A DNA stretch of 64,000 nucleotides from a virus: positions 1-64,000 of IMG/VR virus record IMGVR_UViG_3300031521_000014; one strand, 5' to 3'. The notes below the pieces were generated by a model. It searched no databases. It was not told the origin of the DNA and worked only from the letters and a program-made list of their open reading frames with translations. Shown piece after piece: positions 22,366 through 59,176 of the stretch (position 1 is its first letter; the number at the start of each line of letters is the position of its first letter). Position numbers and translations under genes: made by a program.

Positions 22366-24186
22366 ATGTCATCACCATTTGACGTAGAGTCATTCATGTC
22401 TTCGCACAATATTCAAAAGACTGTCCCTGAAATTGTTAACAATCTTAATACTACTTTTACTATTAAGATTGGTAAATCAGGTATACCTACTTTAATTTAC
22501 AAAGTAGTTAAGCAACCTAAAGGTAATAAATATTACTTAGAGCCTACCTTACCAAGATGGTCACTACCGCATAAAATCTATGGGGATCTTCGTGATAAAG
22601 CAGTTATCATTTGGAATAACTATGCCAAGTTATATAATAAAGGTGGTGGCTCTAGTGGGGCTATGCTAACAGGAGATTCTGGTGCTGGTAAAGCACTACA
22701 TGGTGATACACTTGTTAGGGTAACGAATGGTTGGAAACCTATTAAAGATATCAAAATTAATGATAAAGTAATTGGAAAAAATGGGTTACCTGCTAAAGTA
22801 GTCGGCGTATTTCCACAAGGAAAAGTTCCATTATACAGAATAACCTTTGAAGATGGTAGATCAACTAGGCCCTGTGGTGATCATCTATGGGAGATTATTC
22901 AAGATGGTGTAAAGGATGTGTATAATACTAAAGAACTTATTCTAAGAATGGATAAGCATCCTGACAGTATCTTTAGTATACCGCTTTGCGATGCTGTTTT
23001 AAATACACCTTTTACGATACCTTATGAGCCAGATGATTATACTAAACGTGTTAACAATTATCTGGAAGAGCGTATTCGCAAGTGTTATTTAGACAACACT
23101 GCTGATGTTAGAGAGAAGCTTCTACGATGTCTTTTAAAAGATAGTGTAAGTGAAGAAAAACCTTTCTTTCATTATGAATGTACAAATGAATTCATCGTTA
23201 AAGATATTGTTATGTTGGCACGTTCGTTAGGGTATATTGCTAAAGAGTATGCTACTACGGACACGAAGTCAATACCGCTGTTTGGTGTACGTGTTGAAGG
23301 TGAGAAACGAACATTACAAATATCATGTATTGAACCTATTGAAGCAGCTGAGGCTTATTGTATCTCTGTTAATAATGCCGATCATCTTTATGTTGTTGAA
23401 GATTATATTGTTACGCATAATACAGAAACATGTAAGATACTCTGCAATATTGCTATTGATAACAATATGCCTGTGATCGAGGTTAGTAACCTTGAAGCAA
23501 CGATGGAGCTAGTTCAATTCTTAAGCGGACTAAATGATGTTGTAATATTCCTAGATGAATTTGTAAAGAACTTTGCATCATTACAGGATACGATGTTAAC
23601 AGCTCTGAGTGATCTTTATAAAACGAATAAGTTGTTTATCATTACAGAGAATGACTCAAGGCGTATTAATCAATATATCTTAAATAGTCCTAGTCGTATA
23701 AAACATCATTATCGTTTTAAACGTATTGGTAAAGATGTTCTAGAAGAATACAGTACAGATATGAAAGTAAGAGAAGATTTCTTAAAAGATCTTCTCTTAA
23801 AATATGATAGGTCGCCTGTTTTCTCGTTTAACCATTTACGTGCTATTGTAGAAGAACATGTTGAGTACCCTAATGATAGTCTTGATGATCTTATAGGAAG
23901 ACTAAATGTATCCGTGCTTGACAATACTACAGCATTAAAAGTAACCAAGGTATATGACACTGTTGCAAAAGAAGAATTAAAGTTTGACAGCTGTATTATA
24001 GATATACCTTATTTTAATAAAGGTTACTCTCAAGCTATAAAAGTAGCAAACAATGTTTATAAGTTTAGTAAAAATGACATCATAACAACGTATGATGATG
24101 GTGATAGAATTCTTTTAGGTATTGAGAATTTGGTTATCACACTTGATCTAATTAAAGAAACGGGGGGATCGACATCACGATGGTAG
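22366..24186 (+). CDS. AAA+ ATPase interrupted in Walker A by a class 3-like intein
   Basis: The 606-aa product contains a 363-aa ATPase once the intein (residues 110-352) is removed. The spliced Walker A reads GDSGAGK joined to TE, so the insertion falls exactly after the catalytic lysine. Walker B is 'VIFLDEF' (Asp397, Glu398), and a sensor-like 'FIITENDSRRIN' follows. The family resembles AAA+ ATPases of large phages, but I cannot give a specific role. The first 95 residues are a separate mixed domain. AAAGGAAG precedes the ATG. Unspliced protein cannot hold ATP normally, so splicing gates activity. Confidence 0.8.
   Translation: MSSPFDVESFMSSHNIQKTVPEIVNNLNTTFTIKIGKSGIPTLIYKVVKQPKGNKYYLEPTLPRWSLPHKIYGDLRDKAVIIWNNYAKLYNKGGGSSGAMLTGDSGAGKALHGDTLVRVTNGWKPIKDIKINDKVIGKNGLPAKVVGVFPQGKVPLYRITFEDGRSTRPCGDHLWEIIQDGVKDVYNTKELILRMDKHPDSIFSIPLCDAVLNTPFTIPYEPDDYTKRVNNYLEERIRKCYLDNTADVREKLLRCLLKDSVSEEKPFFHYECTNEFIVKDIVMLARSLGYIAKEYATTDTKSIPLFGVRVEGEKRTLQISCIEPIEAAEAYCISVNNADHLYVVEDYIVTHNTETCKILCNIAIDNNMPVIEVSNLEATMELVQFLSGLNDVVIFLDEFVKNFASLQDTMLTALSDLYKTNKLFIITENDSRRINQYILNSPSRIKHHYRFKRIGKDVLEEYSTDMKVREDFLKDLLLKYDRSPVFSFNHLRAIVEEHVEYPNDSLDDLIGRLNVSVLDNTTALKVTKVYDTVAKEELKFDSCIIDIPYFNKGYSQAIKVANNVYKFSKNDIITTYDDGDRILLGIENLVITLDLIKETGGSTSRW
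22693..23421 (+). other. Intein coding segment, class 3 type, 243 aa
   Basis: The intein begins with Ala (not Cys or Ser) in 'ALHGDTLVRV' and ends 'IVTHN' before Thr+1. The class 3 triad is visible: Trp in block B 'GDHLW' (intein residue 66), Cys at block F position 4 'YCISV' (223) and Thr in block G 'VTHN' (241). The middle has 'REKLLRCLLKDS' and 'IVMLARSLGYIAKEY', which look like a decayed LAGLIDADG endonuclease lacking its acidic motif. The intein is therefore probably splicing-competent but no longer mobile. Mechanistic class is based on the known class 3 definition. Confidence 0.8.
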
Positions 24187-25345: not shown

Positions 25346-25420
25346 GGGCCTATAGCTCAGAGGTAGAGCAATCCGTTCATAACGGATCGGTCGGGATTTC
25401 AAAACTCTCTGGGCCCACCA
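25346..25420 (+). tRNA. tRNA with CAU anticodon (Met or, more likely, Ile2)
   Basis: The 75-nt cloverleaf has a 7-bp acceptor stem (GGGCCTA/TGGGCCC), D arm GCTC/GAGC, anticodon stem ATCCG/CGGAT with loop TTCATAA (CAT at 25378-25380), T loop TTCAAAA and encoded CCA. The T stem has a T-C mismatch at the pair closing the T loop (53-61), which is unusual. Acceptor pairs C4-G69 and C5-G68 match the determinants reported for E. coli TilS on tRNA-Ile2, so this could read AUA after lysidine modification. Confidence 0.9.
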
Positions 25421-35081: not shown

Positions 35082-35561
35082 ATGTTAGTAACTGAAATAG
35101 TAAACCACACGCCATATACTATAGGTTTTACCTATGGTGATAAAGAAATTGTTTTAGCGTCTAGAGGATTATTTAATGCAAATCATGCTTATAATAAAAA
35201 CGAAGATGCTGGTGTTTTACGTATTGTAGATGATGAGATGATAATTAGCTTAGCTGCACGATCAGGTATACCTAATTTTATTACGTTATCCGATATGTTA
35301 GAGAAGTATGTTAAAAGTAATAGTATTACAGAGCATGTATGTTTCTTTGTTAATTCAGGTTTTGGGAAAGCCGTTAATGTATTGGATATTTACAAACCTA
35401 CAACACCGTACTACCAACCTGATAAAAATCGTGTTAATATATGTGATGATGACCACACAGATCATCTTGGTTGGGAATTAGCTATACCAGAATCATTCTT
35501 TAAAAATAGTGAAGGAACATACGATAATGACAAATACACATCTATATTTATTAATCCTTAA
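35082..35561 (+). CDS. Unrecognised protein, 159 aa
   Basis: Two ATGs lie 6 bp apart. The second (35082) has better spacing to AAAGGA and is chosen. The protein is beta-rich at the start ('YTIGFTYGDKEIVLASRG') and helical in the middle. The C-terminal part contains 'NICDDDHTDHLGWEL', an acidic and histidine-rich cluster that might bind a metal. No family is recognised. Confidence 0.6.
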   Translation: MLVTEIVNHTPYTIGFTYGDKEIVLASRGLFNANHAYNKNEDAGVLRIVDDEMIISLAARSGIPNFITLSDMLEKYVKSNSITEHVCFFVNSGFGKAVNVLDIYKPTTPYYQPDKNRVNICDDDHTDHLGWELAIPESFFKNSEGTYDNDKYTSIFINP

Positions 35562-41959: not shown

Positions 41960-42002
41960 ATAGAAGAACTATTTTCTAAATAATTTGTATAATAAAGAGG
42001 TC

Positions 42003-42031
42003 GGGGCTTCGCCCCTCCCTATAGTATTTTT
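42003..42031 (+). terminator. GC-rich terminator hairpin
   Basis: GGGGC (42003-42007) pairs with GCCCC (42011-42015) around TTC, with AGG/CCT outside it. TTTTT lies 12 nt downstream. Confidence 0.6.
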
Positions 42032-42045
42032 CATTTCAGAATATA

Positions 42046-42152
42046 TTTCATGCGGTGAGCATGTACCGATTAGTTTATAGTGTTACCGTGTGGTGCCCGC
42101 TTCCCCTACGCCAGAATCTCGTCTGACTCAAAGTAGTCTAACCCGCATGAAA
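42046..42152 (+). ncRNA. Candidate structured RNA element closed by a perfect 10-bp stem
   Basis: TTTCATGCGG (42046-42055) pairs exactly with CCGCATGAAA (42143-42152). Inner pairings include GACT/AGTC (42125-42138) and GGTG/CGCC (about 42096-42115). The interval has no ORF and is more GC-rich than its surroundings. It could be a small RNA or the 5' leader of the gene at 42,247. No known class is recognised. Confidence 0.45.
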
Positions 42153-42246
42153 CATAAACTGAACCCGCAATATAGTTGCCAAAGGACTGACACCAAAAGA
42201 TGTCATATAATACCATAGTGTAAACTATTATTAATAAGGAATAGAA

Positions 42247-53503: not shown

Positions 53504-54586
53504 ATGGTACTTTTTAAAGATGACTATCAATCCTCTCCAGTTATAGATCTGTCTACTAGAAACATAACTTTTCTAGAGTATGCCTATAGTTTAAAAGAGT
53601 CAGGTATTAAAAATTGGGCATTCTGTCTAATATTACATAACGCAGAACTTATAGGCGTAGATCCTTTCTCTAAGGATCTTACTGTATTACAAAAAACCGC
53701 TATCATTCTTGAAGCAGCAGAAAATCCGTGGTATTTTTTTAGAGAGGTTGTTAGGGTACCTGCGCATGGCAATTGCGCGTCTAAATACTTTAAAGCAAAT
53801 GCGTTTAGTATACCTATACTATGGTCACATCTTGCAGGTATCTCACTTTTAATTGCTGGGCCGAGGCAGGTAGGTAAATTATTACCTGTTGATATGCTAC
53901 TAGAGTATAGTATCATTTTATCTGGTTATCATACATCAGAAATACTTTTCAAAGATGATAATATCCGCAGTATAAGTATTCTGACTATTCTAAATAACAT
54001 AGAATTATTACCGGATTTTTTCAAAAGCAGTGTCACACCTCAACATATTAAAGACCCTATAGAAAAATTAGTATGTAAACCTAATAGCACATGTATCAAT
54101 ACTAGTGTTGCAAATCAGATTGCTAAATACGCCGCGTTGGCATATCGCGGACAGACTTTTAATACTTTTGTAATTAGGGATGCCTTATTCGTAAAAAATC
54201 TAGATAAGTATATCACCAATGCTTTACCAAGTATGAACTACGCCAATGAACTTGTTGAGGCTAATTCTTTAGGAGGCATGATTGTTATCACGAACTATGA
54301 TGATCTTAAACGTAAGGATTCAGAGGGATCTAAATATGTTTATGATACCTTTGTTAAAAATCAGCCAGTTTGGGATGATACCCTTTATGATACTTTAAAT
54401 TGTAACAATATTAAGGATACTTTTACTGTTAAAAAAGATGGTAAAGCTACGAGGTTGTTTCTTAATATTGATGCTAGTTATGCTAAAATAGGGTTTACGG
54501 AAGAAATGGTTAAACAACACATACTTGACAGTTGTATCGATACTGAAAAATGCCCGTATGAATTCTTAGACCATTGGGTGATTTAA
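53504..54586 (+). CDS. Terminase large-subunit-like protein, shortened and ATPase-defective
   Basis: The sequence follows the terminase large subunit of large phages: 'GIKNWAFCLILHN', 'NPWYFFREVVRVP' and 'GPRQVGK' (119-125), then 'KLVCKPNS' and 'YRGQTFNTFVIRD'. The Walker A Thr/Ser after Lys125 is replaced by Leu, and the expected Walker B Asp-Glu is Asp226-Ala. The nuclease domain is absent, since the protein is 360 aa against about 600 or more. It is therefore probably not a packaging motor. It may be a decoy or regulator of packaging or another DNA-binding protein. Based on recalled family patterns; a real terminase should exist elsewhere. Confidence 0.65.
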   Translation: MVLFKDDYQSSPVIDLSTRNITFLEYAYSLKESGIKNWAFCLILHNAELIGVDPFSKDLTVLQKTAIILEAAENPWYFFREVVRVPAHGNCASKYFKANAFSIPILWSHLAGISLLIAGPRQVGKLLPVDMLLEYSIILSGYHTSEILFKDDNIRSISILTILNNIELLPDFFKSSVTPQHIKDPIEKLVCKPNSTCINTSVANQIAKYAALAYRGQTFNTFVIRDALFVKNLDKYITNALPSMNYANELVEANSLGGMIVITNYDDLKRKDSEGSKYVYDTFVKNQPVWDDTLYDTLNCNNIKDTFTVKKDGKATRLFLNIDASYAKIGFTEEMVKQHILDSCIDTEKCPYEFLDHWVI

Positions 54587-57105: not shown

Positions 57106-57651
57106 ATGAGAAATGACGGAAAGACCTATATCAATATAGGTAAAGACGCTAAAACAGATTTAGGTAAAACACTTTGGCTGTATGCCGGTTTAAAGAAACA
57201 AATCACGTATGTTGATGAACAGGGCAAGAAGTTTAAGTTCATGTCTTTAGGAGGCCTTTATGAGTATCTACGAGTACTTAATGTTATTAAGACATATAAC
57301 TTTGAAGGTGTGCCGTTAGCTATTCTAGAAATGCTTGATGGTTTGAAAGAATCAAAAGGATTTAATAGTTTAGCCGTTGGTACTTCTATTATTCGTAAAC
57401 TGGTTGAAACCAGACGATATACCCTAATAGATTTTCAAAAAGATTCTGCTGCTAGGGCAAGTGTACTTACTGCTATGGTAGACACTTTGAACAACCAACC
57501 TAAATTGGTAAAAGCACTTGTTGAAAACACTTTACCATTAGGTTCTTTTAGGGTTATTGGGTATACATCTATATATCCAAATGTATCTGAAGCATGGGTT
57601 AGCGAAAATTGGAATAAAGCACTTGAGATTGTTAATTCCAATAAAAATTAA
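57106..57651 (+). CDS. Possible NADAR-like protein, paralog of 29.1-kb gene, 181 aa
   Basis: Second of two ATGs, 5 nt after AAAGGA. The N-terminus 'INIGKDAKTDLGKTLWLYA' matches the gene at 29.1 kb. The expected catalytic region is not clear, so the relation to NADAR (ADP-ribose removal) is uncertain. The gene ends the operon with the BCS1-like ATPase and borders the large non-coding RNA region. Confidence 0.4.
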   Translation: MRNDGKTYINIGKDAKTDLGKTLWLYAGLKKQITYVDEQGKKFKFMSLGGLYEYLRVLNVIKTYNFEGVPLAILEMLDGLKESKGFNSLAVGTSIIRKLVETRRYTLIDFQKDSAARASVLTAMVDTLNNQPKLVKALVENTLPLGSFRVIGYTSIYPNVSEAWVSENWNKALEIVNSNKN

Positions 57652-57660
57652 CACCATATT

Positions 57661-57775
57661 ATTAAAAATGTAGGGGCAATAGGGTGCAGTCTTAACCGAC
57701 TGATACCTAGAGTAGCATAAACTACATAACCGGCAGGGATCACACCGTAGCTACCGTAAGGTAGTCTAGAAGTTA
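57661..57775 (+). ncRNA. Structured leader upstream of the large RNA (5' domain or separate element)
   Basis: CAGTC/GACTG (57687-57702) is followed by CTAGA (57707-57711) pairing with TCTAG (57765-57769). This closes a multiloop of GTAG/CTAC (57712-57725), CGG/CCG and CTACC/GGTAG (57751-57764) with a GTAA tetraloop. It may be the 5' domain of the large RNA or a separate element. It is not a tRNA. Confidence 0.4.
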
Positions 57776-57803
57776 TTTTTTAACAGGTCACTATTATATT
57801 GAG
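57776..57803 (+). promoter_or_regulatory. Shared upstream motif of the two non-coding RNA regions, copy 2
   Basis: TTTTTTAACAGGTCACTATT followed by ATATTGAG matches 23 of 28 positions of the copy at 25,184. It lies immediately before the large structured RNA, so a dedicated promoter or processing site is likely (inference). Confidence 0.55.
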
Positions 57804-57804
57804 A

Positions 57805-58545
57805 ATAAAAAATAACCGCTTAACAAAATTAGCGATTACTCTTCTCAGTTGGTTTATAACGGTCGCCCCCGGCCGTATAACTGACACCAGGTGATACATA
57901 ATGCCCAGCAGGTTATGTATCGATAACAGTAATAGCTGTTATACCTACCACTGCTGCAAACCTACTGCATGACAAAAAATCCGACAAATCGTTAGCAGTA
58001 TTGGGAACACGCATGCAGAGAGTCGGTAATCGTTATGCGTGTTAAACTTGGTGCCATAATGGGTTTTCACATGCAACATGTGAAAAAGCTTAGCTTTTCG
58101 CCTGACTTTAAGTCATATCGCGATGTGATGCAAGCAGCTTAGACTAACGTCTCGGCAAGCCGGTAAACCGGAGGGTGGGATTGGCAAAAAGACTAATATT
58201 AAAAGTACGATGTTACTAATAATTACTAATGGAATGCTGTATATGTTGCAAACAGTTTGACTTAGTCTAGCGGCCAATGGTCGTTATGTCCACATCGGAG
58301 TTACTAGTTAAGCAGCCGCCAAGCGCAACCATAGGTTGGTATGCTAAAACACGTATATTATTAATAAACTAAAAAAAGGATATTAGTAATACATTAGCTA
58401 TACTAAGCGTCGAAGACTGATAATATTTGCGTAGGCCACGTAGGTATTGTCAGTTTATTTTATATGGGTCGAGATGACCCACCTCTTTCGCAGTAATCGT
58501 TCACACACTCTGTAACTACTTCACGCACTAGTGCGTGAAGTAGTT
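57805..58545 (+). ncRNA. Very large structured non-coding RNA (about 740 nt), candidate ROOL/GOLLD-type or new class
   Basis: No ORF with an SD is present and the DNA is more GC-rich than its flanks. Long-range CGATTACT (57833-57840) pairs with AGTAATCG (58492-58499). Inside are many stems: ACGGTCG/CGGCCGT (57859-57876), a three-way junction AGGT/ACCT enclosing GATACATAA/TTATGTATC and ATAACAG/CTGTTAT (57889-57946), AACACGCAT/ATGCGTGTT (58006-58043), TTTTCACATG/CATGTGAAAA (58064-58086), AGACTAA/TTAGTCT (58141-58268), and ACTGATAATA/TATTGTCAGT (58416-58454). Loop pairings CAGCAG/CTGCTG and CCGAC/GTCGG suggest pseudoknots. It ends at a terminator. ROOL and GOLLD are large phage-associated RNAs; membership is untested. 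Confidence 0.7.
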
Positions 58546-58567
58546 ATATTTATATTTTCATTTTTTT
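58514..58567 (+). terminator. Perfect-palindrome terminator of the large RNA
   Basis: AACTACTTCACGCACT (58514-58529) and its exact complement (58530-58545) form a 32-nt palindrome, followed by T-rich sequence that runs into the next promoter's seven-T block. Confidence 0.8.
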
Positions 58568-58588
58568 ATAAAGATACATTATAAAAGT
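58559..58588 (+). promoter_or_regulatory. AT-rich phage promoter (ATAAAGATACATTATAAAA)
   Basis: CATTTTTTTATAAAGATACA followed by TTATAAAAG is nearly identical to the block at 17.4 kb and leads to the gene at 58,631. Confidence 0.7.
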
Positions 58589-58630
58589 AATACTATAGCA
58601 AAGCTATATAAAGAAAATGAGGAGAATAAA

Positions 58631-59176
58631 ATGGATTACGCACTCTATGAAAGAATGTTTAATGTTGTAAATGCTAGACTATTTACAAACCCTGCAGATA
58701 AGAGTTTACGCGGAAATGATCTAGCAAATGAGATTAGTTTTCATATTTCAAATATGATTAATACTATTACAGGTAACTCGTTATTAACACAAAATAACAG
58801 AATGGACTGTATCAAAATAGTAATGGATAGACTTACAACACAATACGAGCTTTCTAAAAGAATACTTTCATTGTTCGATGGTGAGACTATTACTATTGCT
58901 GATGTTAACAATGAAGTCTATGGCGATATAGTTGTTAACATCATTATGGACAGGTTGGAGACAACTAAACAACATGAAAAGATCAGTAGTGCTTATCTAC
59001 CGTTAAAAGTCTTTTTAAGTACAAATAAGTTAACTGTCGATGCTGAAGTTTCTCCTAGAGAAACATCATATCAAATATTTCTAGCTAATCCTGAATATGA
59101 AGCGTTGATTTGTAAACTTATAGCAGAGATCATCATGTCAAAATCAGTTGCTGAGAGCATAAAGTTTACGTGGTAA
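58631..59176 (+). CDS. Unrecognised helical protein, 181 aa
   Basis: GAGGAG precedes the ATG. It is mainly helical ('RGNDLANEISFHISNMI', 'RLTTQYELSKRILSLF'), neutral in charge and without membrane spans. It is first in the last operon of the window. No family is recognised. Confidence 0.6.
   Translation: MDYALYERMFNVVNARLFTNPADKSLRGNDLANEISFHISNMINTITGNSLLTQNNRMDCIKIVMDRLTTQYELSKRILSLFDGETITIADVNNEVYGDIVVNIIMDRLETTKQHEKISSAYLPLKVFLSTNKLTVDAEVSPRETSYQIFLANPEYEALICKLIAEIIMSKSVAESIKFTW

Follow-up and report, generated by a model that had tools for sequence, protein, structure and literature searches.

A putative large structured non-coding RNA in a gene-free interval of a phiKZ-like jumbo phage

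What does a jumbo phage encode in almost one kilobase of DNA that holds no gene? The question is raised by an interval of 979 nt (57,652-58,630), flanked by two complete genes on the same strand, in a window of 64,000 nt that comprises bases 1-64,000 of a 150,674-bp IMG/VR virus record. Some of the largest structured RNAs of unknown function are giant RNAs of phages, e.g. GOLLD and ROOL (available text of PMC12286853), and a preliminary description proposed such an RNA or a new class here. We lean towards the reading that a deep-branching phiKZ-like jumbo phage transcribes the interval as a unit of its own, into a large structured non-coding RNA (ncRNA), because the interval is gene-free, shows an excess of stems over shuffled sequence, ends in a terminator and is followed by a distinct promoter motif that would serve the next gene.

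All 64,000 bases recur with zero differences in a longer record of 252,159 bp (G001), which looks closed as an assembly because it has a terminal repeat of 127 bp. Metagenome assemblies are the sole known source of this phage. One of its RNA polymerase subunits has 34-35% identity to the counterparts of phiPA3, phage D6 and Burkholderia phage FLC9, and the nearest records by this subunit are G003, G004 and G005 (47-50%), of which G003 has 205 kb and a 127-bp terminal repeat as well. A Bcs1-like ATPase encoded ∼2 kb upstream of the gap matched 170 phage records, all at <60% identity, with Pseudomonas phage Noxifer as the best match (39%). Based on the identities of these two proteins and on the closest records, we place the source phage on a branch that splits off deep among the phiKZ-like jumbo phages. 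The window also encodes a second terminase-large-subunit-like protein of 360 aa (53,504-54,586), with terminase matches in PHROGs and 31% identity to the G003 terminase, and an ATPase-like protein with an apparent intein (22,366-24,186), where a Hom_end-associated Hint match lies just under the Pfam cut-off.

The interval was described as gene-free, and this description holds. There is no gene in any of the six frames, the longest stop-to-stop frame contained in the interval is 56 aa, 10 of the 15 listed stop-free frames were scanned with Pfam and gave zero matches up to E 1, and no other gap in the window is as long when ORFs of at least 60 aa are considered. The interval was also said to be GC-richer than its surroundings, which is borne out by a GC content of 0.384 (0.406 for 57,805-58,508) compared with a length-weighted 0.313 in the other gaps of the 252-kb record (77 gaps of at least 60 nt; 4 are at 0.384 or above). 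Neither of the two proteins encoded on the flanks has a relative in the phage collection at E 0.01, and the upstream one matches weakly a PHROG of unknown function. Protein scans (nine proteins by Pfam, nine neighbours by PHROGs and PADLOC) yielded an ATPase with weak similarity to a defence ATPase (IetA) and the terminase-like protein. A guide RNA or a retron would be hinted at by an RNA-guided nuclease or a reverse transcriptase, and neither was found among the scanned proteins.

Where would a transcript begin and end? The features are collected in Table 1. A promoter-like sequence had been noted at the 5′ side and the RNA had been taken to start at 57,805, and both points had to be revised. 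A sigma-70 scan listed no plus-strand site between 57,506 and 58,905. The phage has a promoter motif of its own, with 28 clear sites in G001, 17 of which were seeds; these sites, of ATATATTAT type, are all on the plus strand. This motif resembles the early consensus of phage AR9, given as AAATATATATTAT-6N-G in the available text of PMC5312081. A core of this type lies ∼150 nt upstream of 57,805, so a start at 57,805 is probably wrong. The pattern TTAACA.CATATTATT occurs in three copies in the 252-kb record, all intergenic and all on the plus strand. The core at 57,648 scores 6.5 on the motif matrix (listing cut 10) and has no T-A near the start site, thus we regard it as a weak promoter candidate. 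Given this core, the candidate RNA was placed at about 57,669-58,556 with an uncertain start, the 5′ end being set by the spacing rule of AR9-type early promoters and the 3′ end by the T-rich tail. An AR9-like late promoter (AACA-6N-TA) also fits at 57,650 and was rejected, as this pattern is not enriched upstream of the genes of this phage. At the 3′ side the perfect palindromic terminator was found as described, with its T-rich tail. Perfect hairpins of at least 11 bp number 22 in the window, and many stand directly after genes with T-rich sequence following. In G003, a core ATATTAT is enriched upstream of minus-strand genes (22 of 72 forward versus 4 reversed).

Table 1. Predicted features in and around the gene-free interval (positions in the 64,000-nt window)
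Feature	Position	Strand	Basis
Candidate phage promoter core TTAACACCATATTATT; overlap with upstream gene end	57,648-57,663	+	Motif with TTAACA to its left
Proposed ncRNA, ∼885 nt	57,669-58,556	+	Gene-free, z -5.0, stem excess
5′ part with hairpins 57,682-57,708, 57,712-57,725 and 57,749-57,767	57,682-57,767	+	Pair probabilities
11-bp AU-rich perfect stem	57,772-57,816	+	Mean pair probability 0.89; stem count
Possible closing stem 57,832-57,840/58,492-58,500, competing with 58,026-58,033	57,832-58,500	+	4.1 kcal/mol; p 0.053
Irregular hairpin with 7-bp GC-rich tip	57,848-57,885	+	Pair probabilities
Three-way junction, stems 57,889-57,892/57,943-57,946, 57,893-57,901/57,913-57,921 and 57,923-57,930/57,935-57,942	57,889-57,946	+	
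Possible loop pairing CAGCAG/CTGCTG	57,906-57,956	+	p 0.035
Hairpins 57,964-57,999 and 58,006-58,043, whose loops could kiss	57,964-58,043	+	Pair probabilities; kissing p 0.16
Perfect 10-bp hairpin	58,064-58,086	+	Mean pair probability 0.92; stem count
8-bp hairpin	58,268-58,286	+	Pair probabilities; stem count
11-bp AU-rich hairpin	58,356-58,391	+	Mean pair probability 0.94; stem count
19-bp hairpin with five G-U pairs on +	58,414-58,456	+	Mean probability 0.98; stem count; terminator-like listing
6-bp GC-rich hairpin	58,465-58,481	+	Mean pair probability 0.94
Intrinsic terminator, stem 58,511-58,548, perfect 34-nt palindrome 58,513-58,546, T-rich tail	58,511-58,556	+	
Strong copy of the phage promoter motif, serving the next gene (58,631-59,176)	58,568-58,589	+	Score 24.1; used as seed

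With the terminator omitted, the gap holds 104 pairs in 10 stems of at least 8 pairs, a number reached by none of 150 shuffles (mean 51). Thus the stems are as dense as had been claimed, yet 7 of 150 other windows of the genome (mean 64) equal that number. G-U counts of the long stems, tried as a strand test, gave 17 versus 18 and did not separate the strands. The nearly gapless three-way junction at 57,889-57,946 could be reproduced: all 21 proposed pairs form, one of them G-U, and one nucleotide at the junction is unpaired. By our own count, comparable junctions occur four times on the plus and once on the minus strand of the 252-kb record, and once in total in three block-shuffled genomes (one strand each), i.e. 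about once per 750 kb. The two loop pairings of pseudoknot type are present, but weak against chance, with p of 0.035 for CAGCAG (57,906-57,911) with CTGCTG (57,951-57,956) and 0.16 for CCGAC (57,981) with GTCGG (58,022). The 8-bp long-range closing stem (57,833-57,840 with 58,492-58,499) is likewise present, but it has p of 0.053, GTAATCGT recurs at 58,026 where it is able to pair with the same 5′ strand, and enforcing the stem costs 4.1 kcal/mol relative to the free minimum. Compared with chance, the loop pairings and the closing stem are at best marginal.

Fold stability was compared with shuffled sequences and with the genome itself. For 57,800-58,550, z was -7.2 on the plus and -5.3 on the minus strand (20 shuffles), values partly owed to the terminator palindrome. 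When the terminator was excluded (57,668-58,508), z was -5.0 on the plus strand (reached by none of 40 shuffles) and -3.1 on the minus strand (reached by 1 of 40). Random windows of equal length from this genome already average z = -2.4 (n = 22, sd 1.9; two below -5.0), therefore fold stability is moderate evidence only. On a finer scale, five of eight 250-nt plus-strand windows starting from 57,663 to 58,538 fell in the lowest 6% of a background of 641 windows (out of 4,032; positions 1-40 kb of the record), two of the eight, one of them containing the terminator, fell in the lowest 1%, and two were unremarkable. The 5′ part (57,682-57,767) is weak when folded alone (z -1.5, 17 of 200 shuffles as low). 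We counted against a structured RNA that the window 58,163-58,412 has z of -0.6, and that the minus strand beats its shuffles too. In sum, the interval combines a long gene-free stretch with structure beyond chance, as is looked for in large structured phage ncRNAs, and this excess is moderate relative to the background of the genome.

Could the candidate belong to a family already described? The preliminary description had proposed a comparison with the Rfam models of ROOL and GOLLD, and we ran it without a match at gathering score or up to E 10. Searched at gathering score with all Rfam families, the gap had no match; up to E 10 there were nine matches, all far under the family cut-offs and with neither GOLLD nor ROOL among them, the best being a match of the RsaJ tail to the terminator palindrome (32 bits versus a cut-off of 100). 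Within G001, GOLLD (RF02032) and ROOL (RF03087) gave nothing at E ≤ 1, and no control genome matched either model. Across 50 related records the GOLLD cut-off was reached in none and ROOL had no match; here, too, no control genome matched either. Hence, of the proposed giant ornate RNA, a large structured ncRNA stands as the best reading, but the Rfam models give no link to GOLLD or ROOL.

GOLLD is frequently located near tRNA islands. The sole tRNA of the window is at 25,346-25,420, ∼32 kb from the gap, and the 13 stretches of the 252-kb record contain this same single tRNA and no other. According to the available text of PMC12286853, GOLLD is phage-borne, >800 nt and multi-domain, ROOL is a phage-borne large structured RNA with pseudoknots, and both form nanocages. 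The candidate is like GOLLD in being phage-borne, >800 nt and multi-domain, and like ROOL in being a phage-borne large structured RNA; it differs from both in that it matches neither model and has no tRNA nearby.

Other structured RNAs of this phage and of its relatives differ in kind. Group I introns of this phage lie at L017:5054-5568, L022:14900-15443 and L027:12950-13684; the first matches RF00028 in Rfam, and the other two were judged by sequence resemblance only. Both pieces that flank one of the group I introns match a single large terminase of G003. These introns resemble the candidate as GC-rich structured RNA (0.41-0.35) in an AT-rich phage, but they are inserted within genes and have the group I core, whereas the gap sits between two complete genes; the RF00028 core has no match in the gap, though the model finds an intron elsewhere in the phage. 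Grad-seq candidates of phiKZ are likewise ncRNAs of a phiKZ-like phage, but their lengths are about 100 and 180 nt and they derive from untranslated parts of transcripts (available text of PMC8545117). No large ncRNA of a jumbo or nucleus-forming phage was found in the literature covered, which excluded most subscription journals and was available in part.

Searches for relatives by sequence gave no convincing homologue, and this was counted against an RNA. With blastn, the phage collection returned nothing at E 1e-5 and one AT-rich 36-nt piece at E 10 (E 3), and the plasmid collection returned 15 records at E 1 (best E 0.8). Related records were taken as the best 80 of 213 relatives, self included, leaving 79 others (49 and 30); a DNA search of these yielded short pieces only, and the best per-record E values, 0.0036 and 0.0023, are thus chance over 79 records. 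Four motif scans of viral contigs found 14, 13, 1 and 39 stretches, self in each, and one scan of genome contigs found 2; all stretches other than self were compared further and none extends past 24 nt. The best of them, 22 nt in L222, is antisense inside a 383-aa frame and was discarded. Moreover, a one-sequence covariance model built from 57,886-58,046 was run on the same 79 records, with two matches besides self at E ≤ 0.1. The match in G036 (20.2 bits, E 0.0032 for that genome) is owed to an intergenic terminator-like hairpin, and both it and the match in G003 (14.5 bits) were judged to be chance.

In G003, the closest complete relative and the second closed genome of this clade, the roughly corresponding stretch near 147-160 kb has no gap >250 nt. 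Elsewhere in that genome, a structured region of ∼1.45 kb with a palindromic end lies on the minus strand (68,477-69,923; L163:8477-9923). We read it as apparently noncoding, although gene calling gave two frames of about 80 aa there; it has two tRNA matches, one called by ARAGORN (tRNA-Met). Homology to the candidate was rejected, since a home-made structure-aware alignment gave scores of 18.4 and 16.4 versus 15.5 ± 2.8 for controls (n = 25, highest 21.6). Among the matches listed (20 of the 26 matched records), the similarity of this region to other sequences is mostly that of its tRNA. The window itself possibly contains a second, smaller RNA in a 287-nt gap (41,960-42,246) with a 10-bp closing stem, TTTCATGCGG/CCGCATGAAA; z there is -4.1 on the minus and -2.1 on the plus strand, and Rfam up to E 1 gave no match.

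A more suitable yardstick may be the long ncRNA (lncRNA) of phage ICP1. The transcript that ICP1 makes in the greatest amount is an RNA of ∼800 nt, located in a gap of ∼1 kb that has no ORF (available text of PMC7567579), and this RNA is conserved near lysis genes in related phages according to a review (PMC9040626, available part). We measured the ICP1 gap between ORF139 and ORF140 as 1,011 nt, with z of -2.2 on the strand of the flanking genes and -2.0 on the other (whole gap, 20 shuffles each), and with no Rfam match above gathering score. With z of -5.0 (terminator excluded) versus -2.2, the gap studied here therefore looks at least as structured as that of a demonstrated phage RNA. The two are alike in size, in lying in an ORF-less gap of ∼1 kb and in having no Rfam match above gathering score; they differ in that there is no sequence similarity and in that the RNA of ICP1 is seen in RNA-seq, whereas the candidate is known from sequence alone. 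A comparison of the candidate with 11 ICP1-type regions gave no nhmmer match, and the best similarity was a piece of 18 nt at E 0.43. The heptamer CTAAGCG, near the 3′ end of both the candidate and the ICP1 RNA (and, with one change, of the G003 region), was dismissed, as it is absent in most ICP1-type members. Regions like the ICP1 lncRNA are present in other Vibrio and Shewanella phages (L231-L240, L230:14098-15108); the search for them matched 126 records, most of them ICP1 itself, and what these regions have in common is short pieces whose order often changes, in a seemingly modular way. In Vibrio phage 501E54-1, an ICP1-type RNA piece is directly preceded by a gene of the TnpB family (L239:1-735).

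How do other explanations fare against these data? The interval could act as DNA, in replication, packaging or recombination through inverted repeats, and the several perfect inverted repeats and the minus strand that also beats its shuffles (z -3.1, 1 of 40) would suit such a role; we regard it as improbable, since such perfect palindromes are common here (22 of at least 11 bp in the window, many T-tailed), the plus strand is more stable, and the extremes of cumulative GC skew, at 35,396 and 151,156 of the record, lie away from the gap (125,309-126,287). If the interval were instead part of a neighbouring mRNA, as a long untranslated leader or trailer with cis-regulatory folds, this would agree with the common strand of the neighbouring genes, and readthrough is possible because the upstream gene and the 5′ promoter core overlap. 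But a strong terminator and a separate promoter motif precede the next gene, and no riboswitch or leader family of Rfam reached its cut-off, making this explanation very unlikely.

Equally slim are the chances that the interval is a decayed gene or functionless neutral filler: homologues and evidence of conservation are lacking and stability is only moderately above the genome background, but the GC content exceeds that of the other gaps of the phage, ten stop-free pieces have no Pfam match, and stems are in excess over shuffles. Finally, a GOLLD, ROOL or ICP1-type RNA could have diverged past detection by models and BLAST. Size, setting and kind all fit, and even among Vibrio phages the ICP1-type RNAs have only short, reordered pieces in common, thus fast divergence of such RNAs is plausible; we nevertheless give this little credence, because neither GOLLD nor ROOL is among the Rfam matches up to E 10 and the ICP1-type regions yield only the one 18-nt piece and nothing with nhmmer. 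The candidate is probably an orphan of a known kind, that of GOLLD, ROOL and the ICP1 lncRNA, and unrelated in sequence to any RNA that could be searched.

For a large structured ncRNA made as its own unit, we infer the transcription, 5′ end, abundance and function as follows. Transcription would start near 57,669 at the phage-type promoter, presumably by the phage polymerase, and would end near 58,550, where the palindromic terminator stands; the product would be a structured RNA of ∼885 nt with several domains. Analogy with GOLLD, ROOL and the ICP1 lncRNA suggests that this RNA most likely accumulates during infection and that it may serve as a stable scaffold or particle, either by itself, in oligomers or together with proteins. 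This scaffold or particle mechanism is drawn from the analogy and is possible though doubtful. A bolder and equally tentative reading is that the RNA is the first of a separate class of giant ornate RNAs in phiKZ-like jumbo phages, of an origin independent of GOLLD and ROOL, made by the phage polymerase and forming a large RNA particle for host takeover.

If the interval does encode such an RNA, giant phage RNAs that are unrelated in sequence would also be present in jumbo phages of a lineage that has an RNA polymerase of its own. The candidate would then be one for structure determination, and for asking how common RNA-only particles are in phages.
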